Positions 3 through 18,730 of a stretch of 21,034 nucleotides of DNA are shown here, in pieces (position 1 is the first letter of the stretch; each line of letters begins with the position of its first letter). The stretch is from IMG/VR virus record IMGVR_UViG_3300005917_000540, positions 1 to 21,034 of that record. One strand, given 5' to 3'. The position numbers were made by a program, and so were the translations under genes. This DNA is from a virus. The notes under the pieces are model-generated. The model did not search any database. It was not told where the DNA came from and saw nothing but the letters and a program-made list of their open reading frames with translations.

Positions 3-494
3 CGATTGAAACATGAACAAAGAAAGCTTGGCCGGAAAAAGAAAAACAAAAAAGGAGAGTCTGCTAAAAACAGGGCTAGGCAGGTATTGAAAATTCAGAA
101 AATATATAAAAGAATAGCCAATATTCGAACAGATTATTTAAAGAAAATTGTTAGCGAGATAGTGAAATCCAATCCATCTTTCATAACAATAGAAAATCTG
201 AATATCAAGGGTATGATGAAAAATCGACATCTATCCGCAGCTATATCCGAACAGAAATTGTCTGAGATTAAAACGTGGTTAATCTGGAAGTGTAGACAGT
301 ATGGAATAGAGCTGAGACAGGTGAATAGGTTTTATCCTTCTTCAAAAATATGTAGCCGGTGCGGAAGTATTAAAAGCGATCTGAAACTATCAGACAGGGT
401 GTATCACTGTAGTGATTGCGGATTTGTTTGCGACAGAGACATAAATGCCGGCACAAATTTGAAGAACGCCCAAGAATATAGGATAGCGGCATGA
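3..494 (+). CDS. tnpB: TnpB-family RNA-guided nuclease (IS200/IS605 OrfB), 5'-truncated by window edge
   Basis: The reading frame is open to the left edge, so only the C-terminal ~164 residues are visible. Numbering from the TTG codon at base 6: a basic helical region, then the RuvC-II segment with the sequence TIENLNIKG (catalytic Glu63), then the typical NRFYPSSKICSRCG segment. A four-Cys zinc ribbon follows (C116, C119, C135, C138), and the RuvC-III motif DRDINAG carries Asp145. This order is diagnostic of TnpB/OrfB, the transposon-encoded ancestor of Cas12 nucleases. The first RuvC Asp would lie upstream of the window. All visible catalytic and zinc positions are intact, so it is not obviously decayed. 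No TnpA transposase is visible. It precedes a structured non-coding stretch, as expected for the element's right end. Family assignment is firm; activity is inferred. Confidence 0.93.
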   Translation, partial: RLKHEQRKLGRKKKNKKGESAKNRARQVLKIQKIYKRIANIRTDYLKKIVSEIVKSNPSFITIENLNIKGMMKNRHLSAAISEQKLSEIKTWLIWKCRQYGIELRQVNRFYPSSKICSRCGSIKSDLKLSDRVYHCSDCGFVCDRDINAGTNLKNAQEYRIAA

Positions 495-4283: not shown

Positions 4284-4793
4284 ATGGATTATTTACGCAT
4301 CTATGTAAAAGAAGCAGACGTGGACAGGCTTAATAAGAAAATTAAATTGGCTTGTCCCCTTATTATAAAAGAAGCAATGTCAGATAACTCTAAAAGAAAT
4401 TGGGGGACAGCAGGAGGAGTAGCTCTTGGAGCAGGAGCAGTCGGCGGAGGGTTACATTTAAAAAAACTTAAAAAACTAAAAAACATAAAGAGATTTGAAG
4501 CATTGAAAAAGCCCACAGTCAGCGCAAAGGGTTCACATTTCGCTCCAAGGCTTAGACAAACCCCTCTCATTAGACCAAAACCTTCCGTCAAGTTTCGTGA
4601 AGCAGGGAGCGTTAAGGTTAAGATGCATTCCTCTGGTCTTCCCATAAGCTGGAAGGATAAACCCGGGAAGGTCATCAAGAATGTTGTCAAGAAGACCAAG
4701 AAGGGATTGTTCAATAAAGCGCTTACGGGGCTATGGGTAGGCGACTCTGTGTTAGATACACTGAAATACAGTCCGAAAGGATTACCGTTTTAA
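4284..4793 (+). CDS. Tag-bearing basic protein with Gly-rich hydrophobic segment; predicted capsid-internal (169 aa)
   Basis: GGGAGGAG precedes ATG 4284. Residues 22-31 (LACPLIIKEA) are a variant of the decapeptide tag, with a predicted cut after Glu30; a similar YVKEA lies at 7-11. A Gly/Ala-rich hydrophobic segment follows (GTAGGVALGAGAVGGG, residues ~41-56), resembling a glycine-zipper membrane helix. After that comes a very basic tail, rich in Lys/Pro and with repeated KKLKKLKN- and VKKTKKG-type elements. Basic composition suits DNA or capsid-interior contact. If cut at the tag the mature chain would be about 139 residues. No enzymatic domain is seen. The cargo role is inferred from the tag and the neighbouring tag genes. 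Confidence 0.7.
   Translation: MDYLRIYVKEADVDRLNKKIKLACPLIIKEAMSDNSKRNWGTAGGVALGAGAVGGGLHLKKLKKLKNIKRFEALKKPTVSAKGSHFAPRLRQTPLIRPKPSVKFREAGSVKVKMHSSGLPISWKDKPGKVIKNVVKKTKKGLFNKALTGLWVGDSVLDTLKYSPKGLPF
4347..4376 (+). other. Decapeptide tag copy, divergent (LACPLIIKEA)
   Basis: Residues 22-31 of the 169-residue protein. It keeps Cys, Pro, Ile-Ile-Lys-Glu-Ala but has Leu-Ala instead of Met-Lys, and is preceded by 21 residues. The TTG codon could act as a start but has no close ribosome-binding site, so I read it as an internal processing site. Confidence 0.6.
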
Positions 4794-4811
4794 AATAAAA
4801 AGGAGAAAAAT

Positions 4812-4997
4812 ATGACAAAAATGAGATTAGGCAAGAATGCTTATGCTGAAATAGTTGAATATCAAGGAGGATATATTGTTGATGTATATAGCGTCAATGA
4901 TGGACGCAAAAGTAAAGCATCTAATTACGTTTACAGAAATAGTTTAAATCGAGCAAAAAGAGTTTCCCGACAGTGTTTTAAAGAATTATTTAAATAA
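4812..4997 (+). CDS. Small basic hypothetical protein (61 aa)
   Basis: AAAAAGGAG precedes ATG 4812. The product (MTKMRLGKNAYAEIVEYQGG...) has a beta-like N-terminal half ending in YIVDVYSV and a basic helical C-terminal half. It lacks the decapeptide tag, unlike both neighbours. No family recognised. Confidence 0.6.
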   Translation: MTKMRLGKNAYAEIVEYQGGYIVDVYSVNDGRKSKASNYVYRNSLNRAKRVSRQCFKELFK

Positions 4998-5006
4998 AGA
5001 GCAATC

Positions 5007-6347
5007 ATGAAATGTCCAGGAATGATTAAAGAAGCGTTCCCTAAGATGATATTACCAATAGTTGCCGGCGTCGGAGTATTAGGATATATTGGCGCAAGGA
5101 AATTAACCGAGCCAGACAGAGAAAAATTAAAGGAAGAAGTTAAAAAAGAGCTCAGCAATATTCCATTAATTAACCCGAAACATTCAACGGTAAAAGTAAA
5201 GCCCGGGATATTTAATCCCACAACTAAGAAGGTTGAAATTGACCTAAGGGTTAAACCGAGCGAATCCGTATTAAGTAAATCCAAGTCGATGTTTGGACAA
5301 GGCACGGCCGATTTTCATATTCCTGGAAGATTATTAAATAAAAAAATTGAGATTGATTCAATTTATTTAAAAGACAAATACAAACGGAAGGGAATTGGTA
5401 AGAGTTTTTTAGATTTGATAGACAATATAGCGAGAAAGAGAAATATTCCAAATGTATCGGTAATTGCTGATGATGAAGGCAGGTATTTTTGGTCGAGAGT
5501 AAAAGGAATGGAGGCAACTAAACAAGACATGGGGAATTTAAAGCAAAATTATAAGATATGGTGCCAAAAGAATAATAAAAAATCGGCTGAAAAAATAACT
5601 TCTATTAAAGATTTTCCTAAAGAGTTTTTATTGAGTGATGATGCTACTGACGGTGCTATTTGGGGTTTCGTCAGTATGAATAAAAAAATCGAAAAGACTG
5701 CCCAATTAAAATGCCCAGGAATGATTAAGGAAGCGATGAATAGCAGGGATCCGGTAAGTCTTAAGGATAGTTTTATAGCCGGCATAGATCCAACTGGATC
5801 AAAAACTTTTCGCTTATCACAAAAAGCAACGAGACACAAAAAACATAGAGCCGTGGGATTAGCTGGCGGATTGATCGGAGGAACAGTTTTGATTCCTTCT
5901 ACAGTAAGTGGAATTATTGGAGGAATTAAAGGTTTCGCAAAAGGACGAGGAGCCGTAGGGAGAATGATAGGCGGATTGAAAGGTTTTGGAAAAGGAGCAA
6001 TACTTCCCTACTCCACGTTACATCATGGAATAAAGGGAACAAGAGCTCTCGGAAAAGCAAGAAAAACCGGATTATTGTCAAGAAAAGGATCGTCTCACAT
6101 TGAAAAAGCATTAGGATTGGAAGCGGGCGGAAAACTGATTAAAAGTAAGTCATTCAGAAACATGTTACCTCAATTGCGCGGCACAAAAGGAATGACAGAA
6201 GCCCATAGATTAGTTAAGGATAAAACCATTAACGCCGCATCGGCATTAGGAGCATCGGCATTGCTGGGAGGGTCTTCTTCTATCTTGCAATATAATCTTG
6301 GCAAAAGAGTAGGGGATGAAAGAAGAAGAGGTTGGGCAAAATCATGA
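5007..6347 (+). CDS. Two-tag composite protein: tag, membrane helix, GNAT-like acetyltransferase, second tag, Gly-rich membrane segments (446 aa)
   Basis: Residues 1-10 are MKCPGMIKEA. A hydrophobic segment follows (~14-30, ILPIVAGVGVLGYIGA), then a charged linker. A domain at ~110-170 looks like a GNAT N-acetyltransferase: a strand IDSIYL, then YKRKGIGKSFLD (125-136) matching the acetyl-CoA-binding motif A (R-x-G-x-G), then VSVIADDEGRYFWSRVKGME. Residues 234-243 repeat the tag as LKCPGMIKEA. The second half has Gly-rich hydrophobic segments (~283-310 and ~314-333) and a third near 408-425. Cuts after both tags would release an ~233-residue GNAT protein and a ~204-residue basic membrane-active protein. 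The ribosome-binding site is weak (AAAGAG). GNAT substrates cannot be predicted. The processing is inferred. Confidence 0.75.
   Translation: MKCPGMIKEAFPKMILPIVAGVGVLGYIGARKLTEPDREKLKEEVKKELSNIPLINPKHSTVKVKPGIFNPTTKKVEIDLRVKPSESVLSKSKSMFGQGTADFHIPGRLLNKKIEIDSIYLKDKYKRKGIGKSFLDLIDNIARKRNIPNVSVIADDEGRYFWSRVKGMEATKQDMGNLKQNYKIWCQKNNKKSAEKITSIKDFPKEFLLSDDATDGAIWGFVSMNKKIEKTAQLKCPGMIKEAMNSRDPVSLKDSFIAGIDPTGSKTFRLSQKATRHKKHRAVGLAGGLIGGTVLIPSTVSGIIGGIKGFAKGRGAVGRMIGGLKGFGKGAILPYSTLHHGIKGTRALGKARKTGLLSRKGSSHIEKALGLEAGGKLIKSKSFRNMLPQLRGTKGMTEAHRLVKDKTINAASALGASALLGGSSSILQYNLGKRVGDERRRGWAKS
5706..5735 (+). other. Internal tag copy that cannot initiate (LKCPGMIKEA)
   Basis: Residues 234-243 of the 446-residue protein. 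Nine of ten residues equal the N-terminal tag of the same protein, but the first codon is TTA, which is not a start. The copy therefore functions, if at all, as a peptide inside a longer chain. Codons differ from the N-terminal copy (TGC for TGT, CCC for CCA, AAG for AAA). Confidence 0.85.
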
Positions 6348-6373
6348 AATGTCCAGGAATAATTAAAAGTTGA
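6344..6373 (+). pseudogene. Cargo-less tag mini-ORF (MKCPGIIKS)
   Basis: An ATG in an ATGA overlap with the end of the 446-residue gene opens a nine-codon frame, MKCPGIIKS, then TGA. The first eight residues are the tag consensus; the Glu-Ala ending is lost. It looks like the stump of a former tag-bearing gene or an empty cassette site. About 30 bases later the next gene's AAAAAGGAG begins. Confidence 0.65.
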
Positions 6374-6403
6374 AATGATCATTAAATAAAAAGGAGAAAA
6401 ATA

Positions 6404-8401
6404 ATGAATTTATTTAAACAACCATTAGCAGCTAAAGACGTATTTTCTTTCATTAAGAAAGAGGCATCCTTAGAGCTTTCCGGTAAAGTTGAGAACTGGC
6501 GAAAAGAAATCGATGGATATATGGATGAGCGTTATTCATTCTTATCGTCAGGATTGGGAAGTGTTAATTTCAAAAAAGTAGACGAAAACTCAAAAGACGC
6601 AGTAGGACAAATTGTCTGGTCGGAAAATAATATGTCTTTTACTATTCCTATCATTATAGAGGACGGAAAGTTAAAGGAACCCAATACTGCTATTTACAGA
6701 GATAAAGTCATTCCGTTAGATGAGGAATTCCTGTCCTGGACACAAAATTCGAATGAAGGCGTGGGAGAGGTAGTTAAAGACGATAAAGACATCACTGATA
6801 ATATGGAATATATTGCACAGGATGGATTATTCTCATATGATGAAGAAGGACAACAGAAAATATCTGCAGATCTGTCGACTATCGATCGCGTTAAAGGTTA
6901 TCTTCAGGATAAGAGAATTAAATTGACCGATAAGATAGCCACTTTCGTAAGAGAGGTGACACCTGTAACGGCCCCCGCGAAAGATGTTCTATTGAAAGTT
7001 TTATCGGAAAATGCGGATGTTCCTTATCATTATAAGGTTGCCGCATTATATAGAAACACCGTAGGTCGACTGGAGGTCAAGGAAGGGACATTCAATGCGG
7101 AAGATATGAAGAAACTTGGATATATATCTTCTGTGGGATACGGACAGACCGAAAATCCGGATAAGCCGGAGGAAGAATATAATTATATTAGAAATGATAA
7201 GAATCTGCAAAAAATACCGGTCGTAAAAAGAATAATAGATACAAGAAATTGCGATCAGTTACTTGTAGAAGGAAAAGCAGTTGAAGGAAAAGTTTTTAAT
7301 AATCTTTTCGCAATATGGGAAAGTAAGCCCGAGATAAAAAGCCTGGCAATAATTGATGGTGAAAAACCGGAAGATGTGGATAAGTGGGTATACGGAGACG
7401 TGTATGGGAGCGTTTCTCCTGAAACCACAAAGTATGAAAAAGGAATGTTTGGAGCAAGTATATCTACTGAAAAAATAGACAGGGCTGCCGAAACATATGA
7501 TAAAACAATTGTATTATTTGCAGGAGCAGATAGTATGTCTGTTCCATATCACGTCATTGGATGTGAAGATGTGAAAATCGGAGAAGAAGGTAATCGCGCC
7601 AGGATTCTTAAGGTAAAATCTTTAACAGACGATAAAATAGCTGTTCTCTGGCTTGATCATGATATCACAAAGATACTAAAGGCAGATAACAAGAAACTAA
7701 AGACCAGGGGTTACTCGTCTTTAACCTGGGCCGATTATAATGTTTATCTTATCCCCGCATCATATAAAGTCGGAATGCTTAAAGGCAGGAGAATTCCCGC
7801 AACATCCTATAAAGAAGATTATCGCAAAATGATTAAAGATATTACGGGACAATATCCAATAGAATTAGAAGTGGAACAAAAAGATGTTGACTTATACAAG
7901 GTGCAGGTAGCTGATGCCGGCGGCAAGAAAGAGTATGATGGATTGTCGAAAAAAGCCGCGACCGTATTGATGAGATATTTCACAGGAGATGGAATTAAGG
8001 ATATTCAAGACATTAAGTATAATACTTCTTATAATATTCAGAAAGTTGCCAAAGAAGAAGAGAAAACAAAACCAGTAGACTTGTCTCCTCTTAAAAGATA
8101 TCGAGGCAGCTGGATTAAGACAGCCAGTATAATGTGTAGTGTGCCTGAGGAAATTCTTAAAAAAGCTGAAGTTAAAAAAGTTGTTGACGATTTAGTTGGC
8201 ATGGAATATATGGACAATACCAATATTCAAGATATGTCCGAAGTAGAAGCAAGGATCATGAAATCTTTGGATGATGTCGGGCAATTGCTCCTGGTAGCAA
8301 GAATGGGAAAAACCGAATTATCCGAAGCAGTATTAGCTAAAAGTTTTAGTGCTCTAACCAAACTGATAGGTGAGATTAGGGGCAAGAATGAGAAGGGGTA
8401 A
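6404..8401 (+). CDS. Large hypothetical protein, probably structural (665 aa)
   Basis: AAAAAGGAG precedes ATG 6404. The 665-residue product has no signal peptide, membrane segment or recognised catalytic motif. It is acidic overall, with alternating strand-like and charged helical stretches. The N terminus reads MNLFKQPLAAKDVFSFIKKEASLELS; the FIKKEA element at 15-22 is distantly like the tag but lacks Cys-Pro and has an extra Lys. The C-terminal ~100 residues are helical. Position between tag genes and upstream of the terminase suggests a virion or head-assembly role. I do not recognise the family. Confidence 0.8.
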   Translation: MNLFKQPLAAKDVFSFIKKEASLELSGKVENWRKEIDGYMDERYSFLSSGLGSVNFKKVDENSKDAVGQIVWSENNMSFTIPIIIEDGKLKEPNTAIYRDKVIPLDEEFLSWTQNSNEGVGEVVKDDKDITDNMEYIAQDGLFSYDEEGQQKISADLSTIDRVKGYLQDKRIKLTDKIATFVREVTPVTAPAKDVLLKVLSENADVPYHYKVAALYRNTVGRLEVKEGTFNAEDMKKLGYISSVGYGQTENPDKPEEEYNYIRNDKNLQKIPVVKRIIDTRNCDQLLVEGKAVEGKVFNNLFAIWESKPEIKSLAIIDGEKPEDVDKWVYGDVYGSVSPETTKYEKGMFGASISTEKIDRAAETYDKTIVLFAGADSMSVPYHVIGCEDVKIGEEGNRARILKVKSLTDDKIAVLWLDHDITKILKADNKKLKTRGYSSLTWADYNVYLIPASYKVGMLKGRRIPATSYKEDYRKMIKDITGQYPIELEVEQKDVDLYKVQVADAGGKKEYDGLSKKAATVLMRYFTGDGIKDIQDIKYNTSYNIQKVAKEEEKTKPVDLSPLKRYRGSWIKTASIMCSVPEEILKKAEVKKVVDDLVGMEYMDNTNIQDMSEVEARIMKSLDDVGQLLLVARMGKTELSEAVLAKSFSALTKLIGEIRGKNEKG

Positions 8402-8404
8402 AAT

Positions 8405-9421
8405 ATGTCGTCAAAACAGACGCTAAGAGCAGTGCCGCACGAAAACTATATCAAAGTCTTAATATTGAGCGGAATACCGGTAAAGCCAACGGCTATGCAA
8501 AACAGCATAGACGAAACCCTGGTAGAAGACAACTACAATAGTTTACCGGAACATTATTACGAATTAATAGAAGCTGAATGCAGGACTATTCCCGGCGGAA
8601 GCAAGATGATTGATCATAATCGTATTGTCCAGGAATATAATTCCAAGCTTATCAGGCCTGCGACCGCTAAGAAATTGTTAATACTCGATGCGGTTGCTGA
8701 AAAATTTAGAAGGCCAGACGTGTTCTATGACCTGGTTAATTATCAAAATTTTAAAAGAAGCACATTTAAGTGTACGGGAGTATATAAAATACTATATGTC
8801 CTCAGGACCGAAACAGCAAGGCAATATATAGAGTGCTGCGTTTTAACAAAAATGGCTTTATCCGAATTAATTAGAGGCTGGAATGACATAGCGGCAGGGC
8901 AGAAATCTATGAGATTGGTGCCTAAAAACATAAGCATCTATGTATATTATTTTTGGAATTGCAGGGAAACAACCTTACGTAAACAAGGCACAACCAGATT
9001 AGATATCATGTCTTATCTCGATGCTGATAAGCGGAACGAATTCTACAGGTATCATAGAGAGTTATTATTCAGGGAACCATCGTTCACGAAACATAAATTC
9101 GGAACATTTTCAGAAGATGACAGAAGAATAGATATTAATGTTATGCGGGGAAAGACCAGAGATCGTATAATAGAAATTTTGAATAGCACAAAATACAGGG
9201 CAATATCTGCGGATATTTTAGATCTTTTCAAATATACCGACGCACAGATAAAAGATAGTGCTGATAAAGGTAAAAGTGTCAATGAATATAAGGCTGTTAT
9301 TGAGGACTTTAAGCACAGAATAGTGGTATGTATAGAAGAGGATATTTCTTTGGATGAATTAAAAAATCAGAAAATTGATCCAAGTCTTATACATCAAGAC
9401 GAGCCAGCGGGAAGAAAATAA
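8405..9421 (+). CDS. Hypothetical protein upstream of terminase (338 aa)
   Basis: Starts 3 bases after the previous stop, with the AAGGGG of the upstream gene's end as ribosome-binding site. The product is largely helical and charged. It has scattered Cys residues and aromatic patches (ISIYVYYFWNC near 176-186), but no zinc arrangement I can defend. The C-terminal third is acidic. Position two to four genes upstream of the large terminase would suit a small terminase subunit or packaging factor, but no DNA-binding motif is clear and the length is above the usual 150-200. Function is not assigned. Confidence 0.75.
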   Translation: MSSKQTLRAVPHENYIKVLILSGIPVKPTAMQNSIDETLVEDNYNSLPEHYYELIEAECRTIPGGSKMIDHNRIVQEYNSKLIRPATAKKLLILDAVAEKFRRPDVFYDLVNYQNFKRSTFKCTGVYKILYVLRTETARQYIECCVLTKMALSELIRGWNDIAAGQKSMRLVPKNISIYVYYFWNCRETTLRKQGTTRLDIMSYLDADKRNEFYRYHRELLFREPSFTKHKFGTFSEDDRRIDINVMRGKTRDRIIEILNSTKYRAISADILDLFKYTDAQIKDSADKGKSVNEYKAVIEDFKHRIVVCIEEDISLDELKNQKIDPSLIHQDEPAGRK

Positions 9422-9546
9422 AAGGAGAAGTTATGAGAACACCAGAAATAATTAAAGAAGCGTGTGTAAAAAAAATGGAAGGATTGCCAGAAAAAGTGGC
9501 AGAAAGGAGAAAGTTTATGAGAACACCAGAAATTATTAAGGAAGCG
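9421..9546 (+). repeat. Tandem duplication of RBS plus tag
   Basis: Bases 9421-9462 (AAAGGAG, short spacer, ATG and the ten tag codons) reappear at 9503-9546 with a 2-base longer spacer and two synonymous changes (ATA/ATT, AAA/AAG). The repeats are in frame. This shows the tag being duplicated together with its ribosome-binding site as one unit. Confidence 0.8.
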
Positions 9547-9726
9547 TTATTTGCTAAAATAGCAGAACGTGGGCAAGGAATTGGTCAAGGCGGAGCAAGA
9601 CAACTTGACCTTGGAGCAGATAAATGTAAATGCCCCAAGTGTGGACATGTCGCAAATCACGATAGAGGTACACCGTGTAGCGAGATAAGTTGTCCGGAAT
9701 GCGGAACTAAGATGGGTGGAGTATAA
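9433..9726 (+). CDS. Double-tagged zinc-ribbon cargo protein (97 aa)
   Basis: AAAGGAG at 9421-9427 precedes ATG 9433. The protein starts MRTPEIIKEA and carries the same decapeptide again at residues 29-38. The second copy has its own AAAGGAG (9503-9509), so translation may also start at 9517. After a Gly-rich linker (RGQGIGQGGARQ) comes a zinc ribbon, CKCPKCGHV...PCSEISCPECG, with C65, C67, C70, C82, C87 and C90. This resembles a small ribbon found attached to varied bacterial and phage proteins. In the tag, Lys-Cys is replaced by Arg-Thr, which may avoid extra Cys beside the zinc site. A cut at the second tag would leave a ~60-residue ribbon. Confidence 0.75.
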   Translation: MRTPEIIKEACVKKMEGLPEKVAERRKFMRTPEIIKEALFAKIAERGQGIGQGGARQLDLGADKCKCPKCGHVANHDRGTPCSEISCPECGTKMGGV

Positions 9727-9728
9727 AT

Positions 9729-9881
9729 ATGAAATGTCCAGAAATTATTAAAGAAGCCGAGATGTCTAATCTTGATAAGAAAAATTTAATATTAGCCGTA
9801 AGTAATCCGAATAGTTATACGTTGCGTTCTGGAAAAAGGGTAAAATTAGCCCAACGTTTACTTCCCGTGATCCCAATATGA
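9729..9881 (+). CDS. Small tag-bearing protein (50 aa)
   Basis: GGTGGAG precedes ATG 9729. The product starts MKCPEIIKEA and continues with about 40 residues, EMSNLDKKNL then a basic LRSGKRVKLAQRLL segment. The mature chain after a cut at Glu9 would be only ~41 residues, too small for most enzymes. It overlaps the next gene by ATGA at 9878-9881. Role inferred only from the tag. Confidence 0.7.
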   Translation: MKCPEIIKEAEMSNLDKKNLILAVSNPNSYTLRSGKRVKLAQRLLPVIPI

Positions 9882-10189
9882 TAAAGATGTATAATTTTAA
9901 ATTTCCGGGATCTAATAGCTTTTTAAAAACAGCCGGCATGAAATGTCCAGAAATAATTAAGGAAGCGGTTAGATATCCTATTCCGTACCTGGATTTTACT
10001 AATCCTAAAACACAAAAACTATATAGAGATGCTAGTTTGGCCTGGGATAAAACTCCTCATGGGCTACATTATAAAAAGGTGCTTTCTAAGAATAAAGGTA
10101 TGCTTGGTCCGGGCGGAGCGAGAGCCATGGCATTCCAAAAGAGCAAAGAATATGCTAAAATTAAAGATAAAGTAACATCCTATAAGTAG
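9878..10189 (+). CDS. Tag-bearing basic protein with 20-residue N-terminal extension (103 aa)
   Basis: ATG 9878 is in an ATGA overlap. Twenty residues (MIKMYNFKFPGSNSFLKTAG) precede the tag MKCPEIIKEA at 21-30. The tag's own ATG (9938) has no good ribosome-binding site, so the longer form is preferred and the tag would be internal. The remainder is basic and helical, with a Gly-rich GMLGPGGARAMAF segment near the C terminus resembling the linker of the zinc-ribbon gene just upstream. No known domain. The terminase gene follows after 11 bases. Confidence 0.7.
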   Translation: MIKMYNFKFPGSNSFLKTAGMKCPEIIKEAVRYPIPYLDFTNPKTQKLYRDASLAWDKTPHGLHYKKVLSKNKGMLGPGGARAMAFQKSKEYAKIKDKVTSYK

Positions 10190-10200
10190 ATAAGGAATCA

Positions 10201-11976
10201 ATGAAAGATTTAGATCCCAAAAAGATCCTTGTAGTTTCAGAGCATAAAAAAGTCCCAAGTGATTATCTTAAAAAGGGGCATAAGCGTATAGCTAAAATGT
10301 ACGCAGATGGAAGAGAATTGGCCGTAGCAAGAGCCAATCGCTTTAAAGGTGAGTATAAGGGCTATATTTATAGAACCCACTTTCTAAACGCATTATTAAA
10401 CCTTAAGAACGAACCGCTATCTTATTGGTTTCTGGAATTCTGGAGAGAGATATTAAACTCAGCACGATTAAGTGTAGCTGTTCCTCCTGAAAGAAGAAAA
10501 ATGGTATGGAAAAATTCCCGACAGACAGGAAAATCTGTAAATGCAGGAGCCCTGGCTATTGGATTATCGGTTGAGAATAAAAACTTCACAACCGTTATAA
10601 CTCAGCCGACAGACAAGCAGATAAGCAGATTTTCCGTAGACATATTAAAGCGAATGAACAGAGATTCTGTGATAACCGAAACATGGTATTATGACAATAA
10701 GCTGAATGAAAGACAGGTTAAGAACAAATCATATACAACCGGATCGCGTATAGTTCTCGCTAATATATTTTCCTCCGTATTGTCTGCCAGGGGTATTTCC
10801 GCAGATTTTTATCATGCAGACGAATACCAGGATACTCCGGAGCATCATGCTACTATTATTGAAGAAGCGTTAAGCAGATCTCCTTTCAGATATATGGTTA
10901 AGAGCGGAACTCCCTTACAGCCGGAAAATCCTTTACAGAAAGAATTTGACAGATCCACCGGACACGAATGGATGATAAAGTGTGGAAAATGTAATACGTG
11001 GAACGGTCCTCTCGGGATTAAAAATATAGGTAAGTACGGCACTATATGTTACAAGTGCGGAGCTGAAATATATACCAGGTTTGGAATATGGGCGGCAGCG
11101 CAGCCGTCTGCTGTTGTAAAAGGTTATCATTGCAACGAGCTAATGGTTCCACCTGGCGCAGAATACGCTGCAACCTGGCCGGAAATAATATTCAAGCTTG
11201 AAAATAAAACGACTTTAGAGTTTATGAACGAAGTTCTCGGCATGTCTTATTCCGATAACAAACATCCCATATCCAGGCAAGATGTAATATCTGTATGTGA
11301 TCCGGGACGATGTTACGTAAGGGAAACAACGGAAATAACTCCGAGAATGAAACGGTATGCCTATGCGGGTTTAGACTGGGCGACGGAAACGCGGCCAGGC
11401 AGAGAAAAAGATAAGATAAAATCTTTCACAACTCTCGTAATAGGTTCATTTATACCGGACATTAATAAAATTGAAATAAATTACGTAAAAAGATATTATG
11501 ATCTTGAATTTGAAGATTCGAATAATCCTATTGCCGTTACAGACGATATTATAAAATGGGTTAATGCATTCAGTGTTAGAGTATTAGGTATGGACTATGG
11601 AGCTGGACATAAGGAAAATATGCGATTATCAAACATACTGGGATATGATAGGACTATGGAATTACAATACCTTGGAGGAACTGACGATAAGGTCGTTTAT
11701 TCCAGCGCGGCGCTTAAATGGATACTAAATAGATCAAGGGTTATGGAAGATTTTATTGAGGCTTTTGTGGTCAATAAGACAATCAGGATGGCTAAGTATG
11801 ATGGGGAAACATCAGAGTATTCTTCCGATCTGACGACGGTATATAAATATCATGATCCGGCTAAAAGATCCTTGCGGTATGGCAAGTCCGGACCGGACGA
11901 CCTGTTCCATTCTCTGTTATTTATGAGATTGGCATTTATGTTTGATCACGACAAGTTGTCATATGTAACAAAATAA
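10201..11976 (+). CDS. terL: Terminase large subunit (591 aa)
   Basis: The DNA-packaging motor: an N-terminal ATPase and a C-terminal nuclease that cuts concatemers. Walker A is SRQTGKS (106-112). Walker B is ADFYHADEYQD (201-211; Asp207, Glu208). A zinc knuckle CGKCN...CYKCG (C261, C264, C283, C286) lies between the ATPase and nuclease domains. The RNase H-like nuclease shows Asp392 in AGLDWA, Asp465 in LGMDYGAG and Asp566/567 in GPDDLFH. Length is normal for the family. The ribosome-binding site is AAGGA. Zinc-ribbon insertions occur in some terminases but not in most. It acts at the portal of the prohead, and the portal gene lies 3 kb downstream. Confidence 0.93.
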   Translation: MKDLDPKKILVVSEHKKVPSDYLKKGHKRIAKMYADGRELAVARANRFKGEYKGYIYRTHFLNALLNLKNEPLSYWFLEFWREILNSARLSVAVPPERRKMVWKNSRQTGKSVNAGALAIGLSVENKNFTTVITQPTDKQISRFSVDILKRMNRDSVITETWYYDNKLNERQVKNKSYTTGSRIVLANIFSSVLSARGISADFYHADEYQDTPEHHATIIEEALSRSPFRYMVKSGTPLQPENPLQKEFDRSTGHEWMIKCGKCNTWNGPLGIKNIGKYGTICYKCGAEIYTRFGIWAAAQPSAVVKGYHCNELMVPPGAEYAATWPEIIFKLENKTTLEFMNEVLGMSYSDNKHPISRQDVISVCDPGRCYVRETTEITPRMKRYAYAGLDWATETRPGREKDKIKSFTTLVIGSFIPDINKIEINYVKRYYDLEFEDSNNPIAVTDDIIKWVNAFSVRVLGMDYGAGHKENMRLSNILGYDRTMELQYLGGTDDKVVYSSAALKWILNRSRVMEDFIEAFVVNKTIRMAKYDGETSEYSSDLTTVYKYHDPAKRSLRYGKSGPDDLFHSLLFMRLAFMFDHDKLSYVTK

Positions 11977-11982
11977 AAAATG

Positions 11983-12013
11983 TTGACAAAAAATTTAAGT
12001 TAGTTCTTATGTT
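11983..12013 (+). promoter_or_regulatory. Promoter candidate after terminase
   Basis: TTGACA at 11983-11988 and TATGTT at 12008-12013 (19-base spacer; TTATGT with 18 is equivalent) lie in the 60-base gap before the microprotein gene. The -35 is perfect, the -10 moderate. Confidence 0.35.
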
Positions 12014-12036
12014 TCTACATGGAAAAGGAGATTAAA

Positions 12037-12135
12037 ATGAGATGGTGGGTATGGATTTTGGCAGTACTTGCTGCAATAGTAATAATTGCAGCTGTAGTAA
12101 TTTATTTTATTTTACGTTCGATGAATATTGGATAG
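12037..12135 (+). CDS. Single-helix membrane microprotein (32 aa)
   Basis: AAAAGGAG precedes ATG 12037 by about 6 bases. The product is MRWWVWILAV followed by an uninterrupted hydrophobic stretch to residue ~26, then LRSMNIG. It is one transmembrane helix with an aromatic, positive N terminus. Its stop falls inside the start of the next gene. Such microproteins can be holins, antiholins or virion membrane peptides; the sequence does not decide among them. Confidence 0.65.
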   Translation: MRWWVWILAVLAAIVIIAAVVIYFILRSMNIG

Positions 12136-13042
12136 AAAATTAATGGAAAAAGAATCTTTCGTAGCGCCGCTTAGCATAAAAAGCAATAAAGAGCGGCAAT
12201 CTTTTAAGGGAATCTCTAAAGAATATATCAATGAGATAATGGGCGGAACATTAGGGTTGGCTGCGTCATTGCCCATAGGATATGCTTTCGGTAGAGGATT
12301 ACAGAAAGTTCCAGCTATTGGAAAAAACCCTCGTCTCGCAAAGTTTATGCAGGCGCATCTTAAAGTGGTTCCAACTAAAGTTATGAGAACGGCGGCGAAA
12401 AAGATGATTTCTTCTACGTCTAAAAATTCTCTCGCTTTAAAAAGAATAGATATTGCAACATCGAAATATATCCGGGCAGGAGCAAAGAAATGGATCGGGA
12501 AGCCTAAAAACTTATCTATGTTGGCCGGAATAATGATAGTAGGAACAGTCGGCTCATACTTGGGAGGAAAGTCTTCAATAAGAAAAATGGAGAAGAAAGA
12601 CAATCTTCCTCCTGTTGATCCGGAGTTAATTGCGGCAAGAAGAGCCGCCGGTATGTTTATTCCCGATATTGTTAAGCCGTTAGAAATGGTTGCATATTAC
12701 GGGATAACTAAAAAATATTTAAAAGATAAGGATAAAAAAATGAATAAAACAGGAAAAGTTATGAAATGTCCAGAAATGATTAAGGAAGCGATGTCCCCAT
12801 ATGCCAAAGGGGCGTTAATTGGCGGCGGACTATTAGGAGGAACAACGTTTATGTCTAATTTATTAATGAAACAAAAAGATGGAAAGAAAATGAAGTTTTC
12901 TAAAGTTTTAGGGAGAACTGCGCTGGGAACGGCAGCGGGAGCAGGATTCGGTGCCTTAGGTGTCAAAGGATTGAGAAGTGCGCGATCATATGGCATAGGG
13001 GATGCCGCCACTGAAATAGGAGCAAGCTTAGGAGCGTTATAA
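12128..13042 (+). CDS. Composite tag-bearing glycine-rich membrane protein (304 aa)
   Basis: The frame opens at TTG 12128, overlapping the microprotein stop; ATG 12143 (residue 6) after GGATAG may be the true start. The first part (to ~210) is basic, with Gly-rich hydrophobic segments at ~39-54 and ~131-146. Residues 176-185 (MFIPDIVKPL) resemble a degraded tag. Residues 212-221 are MKCPEMIKEA, preceded by AGGAAAA at 12751-12757, so a separate protein may start at 12761. The last part has two more glycine-zipper segments (ALIGGGLLGG near 229-238; ALGTAAGAGFGALG near 265-278). Either a cut at the tag or internal initiation would give a ~83-93-residue second product. No enzyme domain is seen. 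Confidence 0.7.
   Translation: MDRKLMEKESFVAPLSIKSNKERQSFKGISKEYINEIMGGTLGLAASLPIGYAFGRGLQKVPAIGKNPRLAKFMQAHLKVVPTKVMRTAAKKMISSTSKNSLALKRIDIATSKYIRAGAKKWIGKPKNLSMLAGIMIVGTVGSYLGGKSSIRKMEKKDNLPPVDPELIAARRAAGMFIPDIVKPLEMVAYYGITKKYLKDKDKKMNKTGKVMKCPEMIKEAMSPYAKGALIGGGLLGGTTFMSNLLMKQKDGKKMKFSKVLGRTALGTAAGAGFGALGVKGLRSARSYGIGDAATEIGASLGAL
12713..12739 (+). repeat. 27-bp direct repeat, left copy
   Basis: Encodes the KYLKDKDKK stretch ending at residue 204 of the 304-residue protein. It matches 13268-13294 at 26 of 27 bases and lies 21 bases before the internal tag ATG. Confidence 0.8.
12761..13042 (+). CDS. Possible internally initiated tag-bearing protein (93 aa)
   Basis: In frame within the 304-residue gene. 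ATG 12761 follows AGGAAAA by a few bases and opens MKCPEMIKEAMSPYAKG. The 93 residues hold two Gly-rich hydrophobic segments and a basic linker (MKQKDGKKMKFSK). All stand-alone tags begin with such an ATG, so independent initiation is plausible; the sequence cannot distinguish it from proteolytic release. Its stop overlaps the next tag gene (TAATG). Confidence 0.5.
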   Translation: MKCPEMIKEAMSPYAKGALIGGGLLGGTTFMSNLLMKQKDGKKMKFSKVLGRTALGTAAGAGFGALGVKGLRSARSYGIGDAATEIGASLGAL

Positions 13043-13269
13043 TGAAATGTCCAATAATTATCAAGGAAGCAATGGGTGATAACCCTTATAATATGTCGGA
13101 TGCGAGAATGGAGAAGTTAATAACTAAACAAACCAAGATATTAAGAAGCCATGATGTAAAGCCGGGTGGCGCATTGAAATGGTATGCTAAGGGCAAGTGG
13201 GGATCTGTGCCTAAAATGACAATAACGGATAGAGGCCACCTGGTAAGCAATGTTAATAAATTGTTATAA
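13042..13269 (+). CDS. Small tag-bearing basic protein (75 aa)
   Basis: Begins at a TAATG overlap with AGGAG about 8 bases upstream. It starts MKCPIIIKEAMGDNPYN, where Ile replaces the usual Glu/Gly at position 5. After the tag come a helical segment (DARMEKLITKQTKIL) and a beta-like basic segment (GGALKWYAKGKWGSVPKMTI). No known family. It lies inside the block flanked by 27-bp direct repeats. Confidence 0.7.
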   Translation: MKCPIIIKEAMGDNPYNMSDARMEKLITKQTKILRSHDVKPGGALKWYAKGKWGSVPKMTITDRGHLVSNVNKLL

Positions 13270-13294
13270 ATATTTAAAAGATAAAGATAAAAAA
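13268..13294 (+). repeat. 27-bp direct repeat, right copy
   Basis: Matches 12713-12739 with one mismatch and in the same codon register, encoding KYLKDKDKK again, but here just after a stop codon. It is followed in frame by LKMPDIVKQAVWAR and TAA. Confidence 0.8.
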
Positions 13295-13300
13295 TTAAAA

Positions 13301-13339
13301 ATGCCTGACATAGTAAAGCAAGCTGTGTGGGCGAGATAA
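13301..13339 (+). pseudogene. Orphan 3' gene end with degenerate tag (MPDIVKQAVWAR)
   Basis: A 12-codon frame that continues the reading frame of the right 27-bp repeat. LKMPDIVKQA aligns with the tag (Lys2, Pro4, acidic 5, I/V-Lys, Ala10). It is best explained as the separated C-terminal end of the gene interrupted at 12739, although a functional micro-ORF is possible. The next gene's AAAGGAG begins right after. Confidence 0.5.
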
Positions 13340-13349
13340 AGGAGATGAA

Positions 13350-14738
13350 ATGTTCGGAATAAAATCTTTTGACGAAGAACGAATTGAAAAATTAGCAACA
13401 CAAGTATTGTCATATGCACAGGAAACACAAATAAGCCTAACTGACGGGCTTAGAAAAATAGCAACAGATTATGGTCTGTCTTCTGCTGAAATAGAAAATG
13501 TTTGCGGCAGGGTAAATCATATACATTTCAGCAATAAATTTGCAGAGGATAAATTAGTATCATTTAAAAGAGCGGTTTTTGAAGACGTCATAGGTTCTAC
13601 TACTAAAACTGCCGGCTACAGGATTTATTCCGGAAAGCTGATGAAAAACGTCTATGAATATCTTGACAAGGAAGCTGCTGTTGCAGATGTTGCATCAGAA
13701 GGAGAATTTGCTGAACCGAGAAAGTTCAAGCAATCCGATACGCAGAGAAAATCATCGCTAATAGACGCTGCCAGCAGGAATGTCGATACCTTAAACGAGA
13801 TGGATAGCAATAGAAATGCTGAGCTTGATAAGATGCGGAATACAATCATCCAGCTTGCTCAATCCGGCGAATCTCTTAATAATATATATGAAGTCATATA
13901 TAAGACGTGGGGAAAAGAAAATGTTGGTGAACTCGATAGATATTTTGCCGAACTCATTGGAGAATTGAAAGCGGATGGATATCTTTCAAGTAAGGATGAG
14001 CTCAAAATACCCGGCATAGAAGATATTCCGGATAGGGAAATAGCTGAGACACCCTTACAAAAAAGTGCGGAAGCAATATTGAAGTTAAGTAGTGAAATTA
14101 TTAAAAGAGAGATAGTTCATTATAATCTCCAGGATATGCTCAAAGAAGCAGGAGAGCATGTTTCTGCCAGGATGGTGGATGAGATCGCAGGAGATGAGTT
14201 TGTGGTAGCTGATATAATAGCTGCTTCCATTGAAAAGGACGCTAACTTTCTTAAAACTATAGGAAAAGCCCTAAAGGCATCTGGTGTTGATAAGGCGATT
14301 CTGGCAGGGACTGCTCTTGCTGTTCCATCGGCTATATTTGGAGCCAGTATTGCTCGAGCAGATGATGTTGCCCTGAAAATAAAGAAAAAGAAAATACAGA
14401 AAAGTTTACCAGATAGATTTCCTGAGCTGAAAGAGATTCCGGCTCAGAAATATATTGATATTTACGAGACTTTAACGGCTTTAACTCCGGTGCTCTTGAA
14501 AGCTCCGTATGCGCTTGCTGAAACAATCAAGGGAGTATATAATTACGATACCATTGACGTTGGAAAGATAACATCATTGATAAGCGCAAAAGGCAAACAG
14601 CCATCCATAGGAGCGGAAGCACTTATGAAAAATTTGTCTCAAGGAATTGGTTCGCAGATGCCGAAGCCATTGGATGCGGCGGCAAAATTTGCATTATCAG
14701 AAAAAATGAAAGCAAAAGAAAATAAGGGGAAGGTATGA
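13350..14738 (+). CDS. Hypothetical helical protein, probably virion-associated (462 aa)
   Basis: AAAGGAG at 13338-13344 serves ATG 13350. The product is largely helical and acidic, with one hydrophobic segment (~316-335, AILAGTALAVPSAIFGASIA) and a basic stretch directly after (KIKKKKIQK). MLKEAGE (263-269) matches an L-x-E/A cleavage site and could divide the chain in two. The C-terminal region is Ala/Lys-rich. It lies between tag genes and the portal. No family is recognised; a head-interior or core component is a reasonable guess from position. Confidence 0.78.
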   Translation: MFGIKSFDEERIEKLATQVLSYAQETQISLTDGLRKIATDYGLSSAEIENVCGRVNHIHFSNKFAEDKLVSFKRAVFEDVIGSTTKTAGYRIYSGKLMKNVYEYLDKEAAVADVASEGEFAEPRKFKQSDTQRKSSLIDAASRNVDTLNEMDSNRNAELDKMRNTIIQLAQSGESLNNIYEVIYKTWGKENVGELDRYFAELIGELKADGYLSSKDELKIPGIEDIPDREIAETPLQKSAEAILKLSSEIIKREIVHYNLQDMLKEAGEHVSARMVDEIAGDEFVVADIIAASIEKDANFLKTIGKALKASGVDKAILAGTALAVPSAIFGASIARADDVALKIKKKKIQKSLPDRFPELKEIPAQKYIDIYETLTALTPVLLKAPYALAETIKGVYNYDTIDVGKITSLISAKGKQPSIGAEALMKNLSQGIGSQMPKPLDAAAKFALSEKMKAKENKGKV

Positions 14739-14938
14739 AATGTCCAGAGATGATTAAAGAAGCGTTATTTGGATTAGGGAAAAGCACCCCTAAAGGATGG
14801 ATAAAAACCAAGCATAAGGGCACTCCCTATATATTTAGCAACACTGCGGAAGCCCATAAAATCATGCAAAGACGAGATATTAACAGTGATGAAAGAGTTG
14901 GGTTAATGTTGAAAAATAAGCTTATGAAAAAAGTTTAA
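14735..14938 (+). CDS. Small tag-bearing basic protein (67 aa)
   Basis: Begins in an ATGA overlap after GGGGAAGG. It starts MKCPEMIKEALFGLGKSTP and continues as a basic, possibly nucleic-acid-binding chain: GWIKTKHKGTPYIFSNTAEAHKIMQ, with a Lys-rich C terminus. Mature length after a cut at Glu9 would be 58. It is immediately upstream of the portal gene. Confidence 0.72.
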   Translation: MKCPEMIKEALFGLGKSTPKGWIKTKHKGTPYIFSNTAEAHKIMQRRDINSDERVGLMLKNKLMKKV

Positions 14939-14975: not shown

Positions 14976-17759
14976 ATGGCCATAAGCGATATTAATGACG
15001 CAAAATTAGTGCTTCTCACAGGGGATAAAAATATAGTCGACATGATATTTGCGACTAATTTGAATAAGTTATATATCCCTGACAGTGTTTATGTATATTA
15101 TTTATTTGCCGAATATTTCTTTACCTATATGAGTATCGGCGCGGCTATAACAAAGTTAGCCCGATTCCCGATATCCAACCTGGATTCCGTGTGTGAAAGT
15201 GCTGTTCTTAAGAAAGCAGCAAAAAAGATCCAGCGTAAAATTAAGCTGAAAGAAAAATTAGTTAAGATAGGGATAAATTATTTTTTATACGGATCGTCTT
15301 ATGTTATTCCCACATTTCCTATAAGAAAGACGATTATCTGTCGTTCTTGTGGAAAAACTTATCAGCTTATGAAATTGGAAAAGAACGGAATACAGAGATA
15401 TACATTCGTAAATGGAGACTATAAGTTTAAGTGTACAAATAAAAAATGTAAATGGCATAAGCAAGAAAGAGCTTTCAGGGTTGAGGACAGGCCGATAAAA
15501 GATATCTCTAAGATGAGTTTAGCGTTATGGTCTCCTCTTAATATGGAGATTAATGAAAACACCGTGACAGGTCAACTGCAATATTTATATAAGCTCGATA
15601 AAACAATGGTGAATAAAATATCAAGAGGCGATCACTTTACTTTATGTACTACCCCGGAAATGTATATTAAAGCGGCTCTCGGCGGTTATTCTATTAAGGT
15701 TAATTCTGATAAAATGTTCGTCCTACATGCCCCGACATTAAAAATAAAGGGTATTCCTATTCCTCCGATGGTCATGGCTATGAATGATCTAATCTTGAGA
15801 ACAAAATATTTGACTGCCAATAGAACTATTTCGGAAGATCTTCTGGTGCCGTTGAGAATGTTATTCCCTATTAATAAAGGAGAGGTGGGGCAAAGACCAT
15901 TAACCCAACAACTCAGGACTGTAGATTGGGTCACTAAAACAAGAAGTGAATTGGATAAATGGGAAAAAGATAAAAGCCATATCATAACTCTCCCGATAGA
16001 GATTGGATCAAAAGACGCCTGGGGACAGGGAAAATTATTGGCAATGCATCAAGAACTAAAAGCCAATATGAGCGATATATTGTCTACGATGGATATGCCG
16101 ATAGAATTCTTTTATGGTGGAGCAGTTTGGTCTAGACACAATGTGTCGGCTATTATAATGGAAAACACATTCAAACAATACGCGACGCTTCTACAGGATA
16201 TTCTCGATTATATAGCTGATGAAATAAATAAGAAGAAAATTACTTCAGACATCCTGGAGATGAAAATTAATACTCCTCGCCTGGTCGATGCTATGGCGGA
16301 AGGTGTTTATCTTGAAAGAGGAATGGACAAAGGGGATATTAGCCCTCAAACATATTATGATAGATTCAATATAAGCTATCCAAGAGAAATGCAGATCATT
16401 GACAAGAATAGGGAGATGATTGAAGGGGCTAGGCAGGATAGGGCAAAAGGAACCGCTCTTGCTGAGGCTAAAGCTCAGGAATCCTTACTGAATGTTCAGG
16501 AGAAAATAAGAAGTTTCGAAAGAGTAGAAAATCTGAAAGATGGTATAGCTCAGGGCAGAGTTGAAGAAGATAGTCTTAATAGAAATATTAAAGCACAAAA
16601 AGAATTAGCTTTGCTTAATGCGGAAATACAAAAAGAAATAATACGTGCTAATGCCTCGATAATGTCGAAGCAAATGAAAGAACAGTCTTCTGATTCTATT
16701 AAAAACATGGAAATCCAGCTTAAGCTTCAATCTGATGAAGAGTATAAAAACGCCCAAAAAATGCAGAAACTTGAAGTTAAAGGAATGAAAGATCAAGCAA
16801 GGGCTGAAGATCAGATAATGGCAGAAAGAGAAGGAAATGCTGCCAAAAAGCAAATTACCGACATATTCGAATCACTTCCGCCTGAGATTAAGGAAGAGAT
16901 AACTAAGCTTCCTCCTGAAGAACAGGAGCCGGCCATAATGCAATATGGCGAACAGCAGAAAAAGCAAGAAACATTAGCGTCTCTGCCGGAAGAAGAAAGA
17001 GAATCGATCCAGGATCTTCCGGAAAAAGAACAGGACCAGAGATTAGGGGAATTGACTCAGGGGCAGGAAGAAGAAGGGCAACCGAAACAAGAAACACAAG
17101 AAGACCCTGGTCTTGGAAAAGAGAAGATCAAACAGAAGCTTGAAGCCGAGAAGGAAGAAGAGGGAATTGATATTCAGGCTACAACATTAAATAAATTACA
17201 AGGACAGGAAAGGGAAGTTTTTAAAGCTAAATTAATACAGGAAGATTCGAAAAGATTTGCTCAAATTAAAGAAGTGGCAGATATGATGTTCGTGCAGGAC
17301 GTTGTTAATAATATTATGGAGGCAGATCCAAAAGATGCCGAAGCCATTTATGAGGAAGTTAAGAAAAATAGACCCGAATTAGCCATTGATGTTTATAAAG
17401 AATTAGAAAGACAACTGTTTTATCAACATCAATCTAATGGTTGGGCATTAAGATTATTACAGACGGAAGGAACTCCGGAACAGGAAGAACTTGTTGGACA
17501 GCTTCGCAAAGATACCCCGAAGCAGTTTAGGCAAATGGTTTTCCAAAACTATCAACAGCTATCTAAGGTTCCTGCTGAAAAAAGAGAAACTTATTTAGAC
17601 AAAGCTGCTTATGCGAATGACAGGCGTAACGATATGGCAAAAGAACTTGCAGCAAGCATAAGTGCTTTTCCGGAAGACGAAAGAAAAAAATTGCTCGGGG
17701 CTTTGAAGCATGAAAATCCTGAGCTATATAAGAATACGACATATTTCATGGAGGAATAA
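14976..17759 (+). CDS. Portal protein with zinc knuckle and acidic Gln/Glu-rich C-terminal extension (927 aa)
   Basis: The ring at the capsid vertex through which DNA is packaged and ejected. Portal-like features: INYFLYGSSYV (100-110), a long helix with MAMNDLILRTKYLTANRTISEDLL (266-290), the segment HIITLPIEIGS (335-345), and the MPIEFFYGGAVWSRHNVSA region (374-392). An unusual zinc knuckle (C122, C125, C153, C158) interrupts the N-terminal half. From ~480 the chain is coiled-coil-like. At ~620-730 it has Glu/Gln/Pro-rich LPPEEQ-type repeats. At 927 residues it is long for a portal; the extension may act as built-in scaffold or as binding surface. The ribosome-binding site is weak (AAAGGA). 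Confidence 0.85.
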   Translation: MAISDINDAKLVLLTGDKNIVDMIFATNLNKLYIPDSVYVYYLFAEYFFTYMSIGAAITKLARFPISNLDSVCESAVLKKAAKKIQRKIKLKEKLVKIGINYFLYGSSYVIPTFPIRKTIICRSCGKTYQLMKLEKNGIQRYTFVNGDYKFKCTNKKCKWHKQERAFRVEDRPIKDISKMSLALWSPLNMEINENTVTGQLQYLYKLDKTMVNKISRGDHFTLCTTPEMYIKAALGGYSIKVNSDKMFVLHAPTLKIKGIPIPPMVMAMNDLILRTKYLTANRTISEDLLVPLRMLFPINKGEVGQRPLTQQLRTVDWVTKTRSELDKWEKDKSHIITLPIEIGSKDAWGQGKLLAMHQELKANMSDILSTMDMPIEFFYGGAVWSRHNVSAIIMENTFKQYATLLQDILDYIADEINKKKITSDILEMKINTPRLVDAMAEGVYLERGMDKGDISPQTYYDRFNISYPREMQIIDKNREMIEGARQDRAKGTALAEAKAQESLLNVQEKIRSFERVENLKDGIAQGRVEEDSLNRNIKAQKELALLNAEIQKEIIRANASIMSKQMKEQSSDSIKNMEIQLKLQSDEEYKNAQKMQKLEVKGMKDQARAEDQIMAEREGNAAKKQITDIFESLPPEIKEEITKLPPEEQEPAIMQYGEQQKKQETLASLPEEERESIQDLPEKEQDQRLGELTQGQEEEGQPKQETQEDPGLGKEKIKQKLEAEKEEEGIDIQATTLNKLQGQEREVFKAKLIQEDSKRFAQIKEVADMMFVQDVVNNIMEADPKDAEAIYEEVKKNRPELAIDVYKELERQLFYQHQSNGWALRLLQTEGTPEQEELVGQLRKDTPKQFRQMVFQNYQQLSKVPAEKRETYLDKAAYANDRRNDMAKELAASISAFPEDERKKLLGALKHENPELYKNTTYFMEE

Positions 17760-18304: not shown

Positions 18305-18730
18305 ATGAAACAATTAACGGAATTATGGGAAACCGTCAACGCCGTGATAACTATGTTGAAAAGTTTTACGGTGGCGGAGAGTATTGCCACAGGGGAATTA
18401 TTGGCACATGGAGCGATAGCAACAAAACTCGCTCTTCCGTATGCAAATATAACGGCTAATTCTCAAAAGACGGATATAATAACAGCGGGATGGAAGCTTG
18501 ATAGTATTATTATTAAAAACAATGGGGCTGCGACCGTTACGCTGAATATTGGAACAAGCGATGGCGGAACCCAGGTTATGATCCAGGAAGATATAGCGAC
18601 GGGGGTATTGTTGAATTACTCGGTTGGAGATATATTCAGTTTATCTGCAGCAACTTCGCTTTGGTTCCATGCTTTAGATTGGACCAATATTGATCTTGAA
18701 GTATATGTATTAATCGAGCGGGTTAAATAA
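18305..18730 (+). CDS. Fibre-domain paralogue (141 aa)
   Basis: AGAGAGGA precedes ATG 18305. The last ~90 residues (50-141) are a beta-rich domain with LNIGTSDGGTQVMI, SLWFHALDWTNIDLEVYV. They match residues ~318-408 of the next gene closely, so one is a copy of the other's C-terminal domain. The first ~40 residues are helical. It is likely a virion surface or fibre-tip component. It has no signal peptide, unlike the next two genes. Confidence 0.75.
   Translation: MKQLTELWETVNAVITMLKSFTVAESIATGELLAHGAIATKLALPYANITANSQKTDIITAGWKLDSIIIKNNGAATVTLNIGTSDGGTQVMIQEDIATGVLLNYSVGDIFSLSAATSLWFHALDWTNIDLEVYVLIERVK

Follow-up and report, generated by a model that had tools for sequence, protein, structure and literature searches.

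A recurrent decapeptide on unrelated genes of an uncultured bacterial virus as a candidate capsid-targeting propeptide ending in h-x-K-x-A

The unrelated, basic internal head proteins IPI-IPIII of bacteriophage T4 carry an N-terminal capsid-targeting sequence (CTS) of about ten residues, which is cut by the protease gp21. In the ten-residue CTS of IPIII, residues 4 and 7 serve targeting and residues 8 and 10 direct processing, and the published gp21 site is L/I-x-E (PMC9026906). Both head and ejected proteins are processed in phiKZ and SPN3US, whose head propeptides (cut by gp175/gp245; A-X-E in SPN3US) are mostly long and diverse. Ser is favoured at P1' of the A-X-E sites of SPN3US (PMC10052503), and Glu at P1 has been described for T4, phiKZ and SPN3US (PMC9026906, PMC10052503). 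Finally, InPase, zincin and GNAT domains occur in the polyvalent proteins, which are predicted to be packaged and injected (Iyer et al. 2017). The decapeptide analyzed here resembles the T4 CTS in its length, in standing on unrelated basic proteins apparently of the head, in ending with what seems to be the head-protease motif of its lineage, and in the coincidence of the key positions 4, 7, 8 and 10, but its sequence is unrelated and it ends in h-x-K-x-A (h = I, L, V, M or F) instead of L/I-x-E; moreover, it also occurs inside open reading frames (ORFs), and its cargos are more numerous and larger, some of them with enzymatic domains. A short P3-x-P1 motif and Ser at P1' would likewise relate it to the phiKZ/SPN3US propeptides, from which it differs in being short and uniform and in having apparently Lys/Ala, not Ala/Glu, at P3/P1. 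The best explanation, to which the sequence data lead us to assign a probability of about 0.78, is that the peptide is a T4-like capsid-targeting propeptide, removed by a protease at its C-terminal end and borne by cargo that is later ejected; it would thus work as the T4 CTS does, while its probable cleavage motif places it outside the T4 system.

The window, i.e. the whole stretch of DNA analyzed, is an entire IMG/VR record of 21,034 bases from an uncultured virus of bacteria and was taken to be a fragment. It was compared with two tagged relatives, G001 (IMG/VR 3300033144_007704, 64 kb; the closest relative, with a portal protein 82% identical to that of the window) and G002 (IMG/VR 3300009314_000008, 78 kb; portal 38% identical). 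The first-pass annotation had counted eleven copies of the motif in the window, and all eleven are present, ten at full length and one as a stub. The degenerate pattern [MLVI][KRAN][CTR]P.[IVM][IVLM]K.[AS] occurs 10 times in the window, 8 times in G001 and 11 times in G002, against 0.03, 0 and 0 occurrences expected from Markov shuffles. The intact copies of the window, all on the plus strand, follow the consensus M-K-C/T-P-x-I/M-I-K-E-A and are divided equally between ORF starts and in-frame internal positions. The five initial copies are MKCPGMIKEA (5007-5036, ORF 5007-6347), MRTPEIIKEA (9433-9462, ORF 9433-9726), MKCPEIIKEA (9729-9758, ORF 9729-9881, encoding a basic protein of 50 aa), MKCPIIIKEA (13042-13071, ORF 13042-13269, with Met as the first cargo residue) and MKCPEMIKEA (14735-14764, ORF 14735-14938). 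The internal copies comprise LACPLIIKEA (4347-4376), with TTG as first codon, at residue 22 of ORF 4284-4793; LKCPGMIKEA (5706-5735), right behind IEKTAQ in ORF 5007-6347 and certainly internal, since its first codon, TTA, is not a start codon; a second MRTPEIIKEA in ORF 9433-9726 (9517-9546), preceding a zinc-ribbon-like cargo with 80% identity to G001 44149; MKCPEIIKEA (9938-9967), at residue 21 of ORF 9878-10189 and right behind FLKTAG; and MKCPEMIKEA (12761-12790) in ORF 12128-13042, with Met as the next residue and a hydrophobic, glycine-rich cargo behind it, the equivalent site in G001 (46812) being occupied by MRTPEIIKEA. A Shine-Dalgarno-like stretch precedes the internal copies at 9517 and 12761, and copies at ORF starts and internal copies may differ in action and need not all act alike. 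The stub, MKCPGIIKS followed by a stop codon (6344-6373, plus strand), lacks both the end of the tag and a cargo; the equivalent site in G001 is an intact tagged gene of 70 aa (39812-40024).

Alignment of 28 copies showed that P4 and K8 are invariant, that position 10 is Ala in 26 copies and Ser in two, that positions 6 and 7 are hydrophobic, and that C3 is conserved less strictly than P4, whereas position 9 departs from Glu in half of the G002 copies (T, I, R, M or K). Identities at codon positions 1, 2 and 3 within the tag are 0.87, 0.85 and 0.64, respectively, and pN/pS is 0.31 in the window (pS 0.49, pN 0.15) and 0.39 in G002. Nucleotide identity amounts to 0.79 over the tag and to 0.28-0.35 on either side, with 0.28 in the next 30 bases. 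Since the tag varies synonymously and nucleotide identity falls right beside it, selection acts on the peptide; the codon pattern and the pN/pS of 0.31 bear out the first reading of a conserved peptide, and on the codon pattern a mere DNA repeat was rejected.

Two scans of 2.9 million viral contigs for the exact tag pattern returned matches only in the related G001 and G002. G001 holds eight further copies and G002 about eleven, which are more diverged. One tag position is common to all three genomes, namely 4347 in the window, 39461 in G001 (LACPAIIKEA) and 67069 in G002 (IKCPSILKKS). Relatives without the tag include L024 (portal 32% identical), L032 (terminase 25%), Salmonella phage Arash and Vibrio phages D69, D148 and D181. 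Arash and the three Vibrio phages resemble the window lineage in their homologous portal, terminase (Arash) and maturation protease, but the MKCPEIIKEA tag was not found in the stretches scanned. A portal search over one genome per prokaryote species gave no match, and a limited literature search found no paper on the tag peptide itself. TnpB/OrfB-like transposon proteins, recognized from sequence, are encoded in the window (3-494) and in G001 (224-1336, 5070-6528, 21979-23151 and 60740-61912), where apparently several such genes exist, one of them adjoining a resolvase-like gene.

The proteins behind the tags had been described as otherwise unrelated, and this is mostly the case: among 30 post-tag stretches compared, relatedness was limited to orthologues, to a single pair duplicated within G002 and to two matches of low significance (E 0.01-0.05). 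What they have in common is charge, with a median net value of +13 per 100 aa versus +0.6 in the other proteins of the window, G001 and G002 (p = 4e-12). Polyvalent-type domains (InPase, zincin-like and GNAT-like) are found among this cargo in a virion-gene context. In particular, the G002 protein 58597-60444 combines an InPase (7e-51) with an M91-like zincin (5e-5), with the tag-like MNCPSILQKK between them, and the cargo of ORF 5007-6347 gives a weak match to GNAT acetyltransferases (residues 103-150, 0.0018, below the curated cut-off); here the tag at 5706 splits the ORF into the GNAT-like part and a glycine-rich hydrophobic part. Another G002 protein (50418) carries DUF3008 and DnaJ-like domains in one polypeptide. 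Apart from the multidomain G002 58597 and 50418, tagged genes mostly consist of one small unit, and in this the cargo differs from polyvalent proteins, consisting mostly of separate small genes, or of tag-separated parts, each with the same decapeptide. An InPase protein is also encoded in L024 (2.5e-56; N-terminus MAIEFLQKIASS).

The combinations of tag and cargo are reshuffled between relatives. The tagged genes before the portal, at 14735 in the window and 48567 in G001, share the tag and differ in cargo, and the cargo of the former (79% identical) is located behind a different tag in G001 (43531). Met stands right behind the tag in five of 18 cases in the window and G001 (p about 1e-4, a rough value, the copies not all being independent), as if the tag had been inserted ahead of an existing start. 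In G001, a DUF3008-like protein (43336-43734) is followed by an in-frame tag; in the window (9433-9546), only its last residues are kept between two tags, the first tag being fused to a remnant resembling the C-terminal end of DUF3008 (GLPEKVAERRKF), and this remnant suggests recombination at tags. G002 (9349-9507, minus strand) also encodes a relative of the cargo at G001 48567, placed behind a transmembrane-like segment and with no tag. Such recombination joints, together with duplicated flanks around tags in G001 and Shine-Dalgarno-like stretches at several copies, would fit a spreading DNA element (Shine-Dalgarno sequence, start and ten codons) that aids translation or recombination and has no role as protein. 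That is hardly credible, given that the peptide is kept amid synonymous variation (pN/pS 0.31-0.39), that internal copies begin with the non-start codons TTA or GCT, that the cargo is biased towards basic proteins and that the terminal motif of the tag also occurs in head proteins without it.

Glycine-rich hydrophobic segments of GxxxGxxxG-like type are seen in many cargos (window 4284-4793, 5007-6347 and 12128-13042; G002 48136-49654 and 58059-58310) and are possibly membrane-active after ejection. Packaging being inferred, the same segments could instead mean that the tag directs proteins elsewhere in the infected cell, to the membrane or a replication compartment, during phage growth. This is very improbable, in view of the position of the tagged genes within a terminase-portal-head cluster and of the concentration of the terminal motif in head genes, not in tail or other structural genes. 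The cluster in the window includes the terminase large subunit (10201-11976, plus strand; phrog_675 3e-49, PF05876 1e-7) and the portal protein (14976-17759, plus strand; 24% identity to the annotated portal of Arash, 1e-28). Long fibre-like proteins are encoded further on (18746-19972 and 20006-21034; 52709-55606 in G001), with an apparent secretion signal start (MKKLLVILLVLLFAVNVLYA), which is unusual among phage structural genes; the C-terminal stretch of protein 18746-19972 recurs in 18305-18730.

Neither an MCP nor a protease gene was found in the window or in G001, both of which are fragments. The first-pass annotation had suggested a search for a prohead protease, and a maturation protease is present in the relatives G002, Arash, D69 and L032. 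Arash gp222, D69 0270 and L032 14107 match phrog_18299 (head maturation protease) with values of 2e-6, 7e-7 and 7e-5, respectively, and the D69 protease has further matches in Rhodococcus phage E3 (annotated prohead protease) and in Gordonia phages (capsid maturation proteases). The G002 protease (45602-47590) gives no direct phrog match and was placed through its homologues, Arash gp222 and D69 0270. The MCPs of G002, D69 and L032 match phrog_2522, and Arash gp226 is annotated as MCP. A search of the protease profile against PDB sequences yielded no credible match, the Pfam and NCBIfam search of the protease nothing credible, and a structure prediction from a two-row alignment (pLDDT 34) was not used.

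The h-x-K-x-A motif at the C-terminal end of the tag recurs in untagged proteins of the head cluster, as compared with counts expected from residue shuffles. In the window it occurs four times in protein 6404-8401 (plus strand; beginning MNLFKQPLAAKDVFSFIKKEAS) against 1.2 expected, and seven times against 0.9 in the G002 orthologue; protein 13350-14738 (plus strand) has six sites against 1.6, and its L024 counterpart (6318) ten against 1.1. Comparable values were obtained for G001 47170 (6 vs 1.0) and G002 64829 (7 vs 0.9), with the control motifs h.E.A, A.K.h and h.K.S mostly near 1x in the untagged head-cluster proteins of the window, G001, G002 and L024. For these four, h.K.A is 1.7-3x enriched and [IL].E about 1.1-1.2x. 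In Arash gp218-226, i.e. protease gp222, MCP gp226 and their neighbours, 38 sites were counted against 5.8 expected (six control motifs, 0.6-2.0x), and in the MCP, scaffold and protease genes of L032, 39 against 5.2; the head genes of D69 are enriched as well. The first-pass annotation had suggested a search for IKE/A sites in the capsid protein; the relatives' MCPs carry h-x-K-x-A close to their N-termini (Arash GLVKEAGAAMS, D69 GLTKEAGAAMS, G002 TQLIKEAND and L032 DPEVMEKVAAT). Ser directly after the motif Ala is 4.5x enriched at the Arash and D69 sites. Enrichment of K.A or h-x-K-x-A is not clear in Myrna and E3, which have related proteases, and is weak in the head genes of phage G (9 vs 2.8), where it comes chiefly from protease gp19; this Bacillus phage G protein (L035:8841-9743), homologous to the maturation protease, has seven h-x-K-x-A sites of its own, and no clear enrichment is seen in the remaining head genes of phage G. 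The L024 genes at 1915, 4700 and 4937 begin MNTIECLQKIARLS, MTTVTILEKIAAEG and MAIEFLQKIASSN, possibly a second, looser tag ending in h-x-K-x-A.

The motif was first seen by eye and then sought by a blind scan covering every one of the 2000 residue pairs at distances of 1-5, in gene sets picked for their position near MCP and protease (in G002, two orthologues of window head proteins were added). K.A took first rank in three sets, namely Arash gp218-226, the D69 stretch homologous to it and the head genes of L032, and third rank in the head genes of G002; outside head genes, it ranked 874 in the G002 tail genes and 1356 in the other structural genes of Arash. The three untagged head proteins of the window alone gave rank 20 of 2000. 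In the T4 control (gp67, 68, 21, 22, 23 and 24), I.E ranked first, [IL].E was counted 46 times against 22.5 expected, and K.A ranked 122. All this evidence is of sequence level, and the enrichment could reflect a shared head binding motif, not cutting, with the tag as an uncleaved docking peptide for scaffold, shell or another phage structure; the conservation of P4 and, less strictly, C3 outside the minimal motif would suit such a role. We nevertheless regard docking as unlikely, considering that the motif is repeated in scaffold-like proteins and lies close to MCP N-termini, as T4 cleavage sites do, that the blind scan recovers the T4 cleavage site, that Ser after Ala resembles a P1' preference, and that conservation ends at A10.

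As a capsid-targeting propeptide, the decapeptide, standing ahead of or between unrelated basic proteins, would carry each of them into the assembling prohead, where the phage maturation protease would cut it off at the C-terminal end, with Ala10 as the most likely P1 residue; the released cargo would remain with the DNA and then be ejected into the host, and internal tags would allow one precursor to be cut into several cargo pieces. Targeting, cleavage, scissile bond and ejection are all inferred. If the T4 geometry holds, K8 would correspond to P3 and A10 to P1, with the cut after Ala10, the residue at which conservation ends; a cut after Lys (h-x-K) is the alternative. The first-pass annotation had proposed a tag that targets the capsid and is removed by a protease, in a phage lineage other than that of T4, and this part is supported by the head motif, the basic and partly polyvalent-type cargo and the protease of the relatives. 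Its T4-type cut after the Glu of IKE was rejected: Glu9 is variable, K8 invariant and position 10 always Ala or Ser, and [IL].E shows hardly any enrichment. The coverage table for Arash contains nothing but percentages and so does not locate cleavage. A more elaborate proposal, to which we give somewhat less than an even chance, is that of a portable cassette, grafted before start codons or inside multidomain proteins, at which a maturation protease of new specificity (h-x-K-x-A, cutting after Ala) would split polyvalent-type precursors into separate injected effectors, with cargo being swapped from one tag site to another.

The phage proteins that are injected with the DNA are usually unknown, and a readable tag points directly to candidates, including those of unknown function. 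The blind pair scan offers a general route from sequence to the likely specificity of a head protease, the T4 rule having been recovered by it. Since virion proteomics exists for Arash, a Salmonella phage in culture, the cleavage prediction is testable now, and MKCPEIIKEAMSPY is a candidate substrate peptide for Arash gp222 or for the protease domain of G002 or L032. A Lys/Ala site, if true, would widen the picture of Glu at P1 known from T4, phiKZ and SPN3US.
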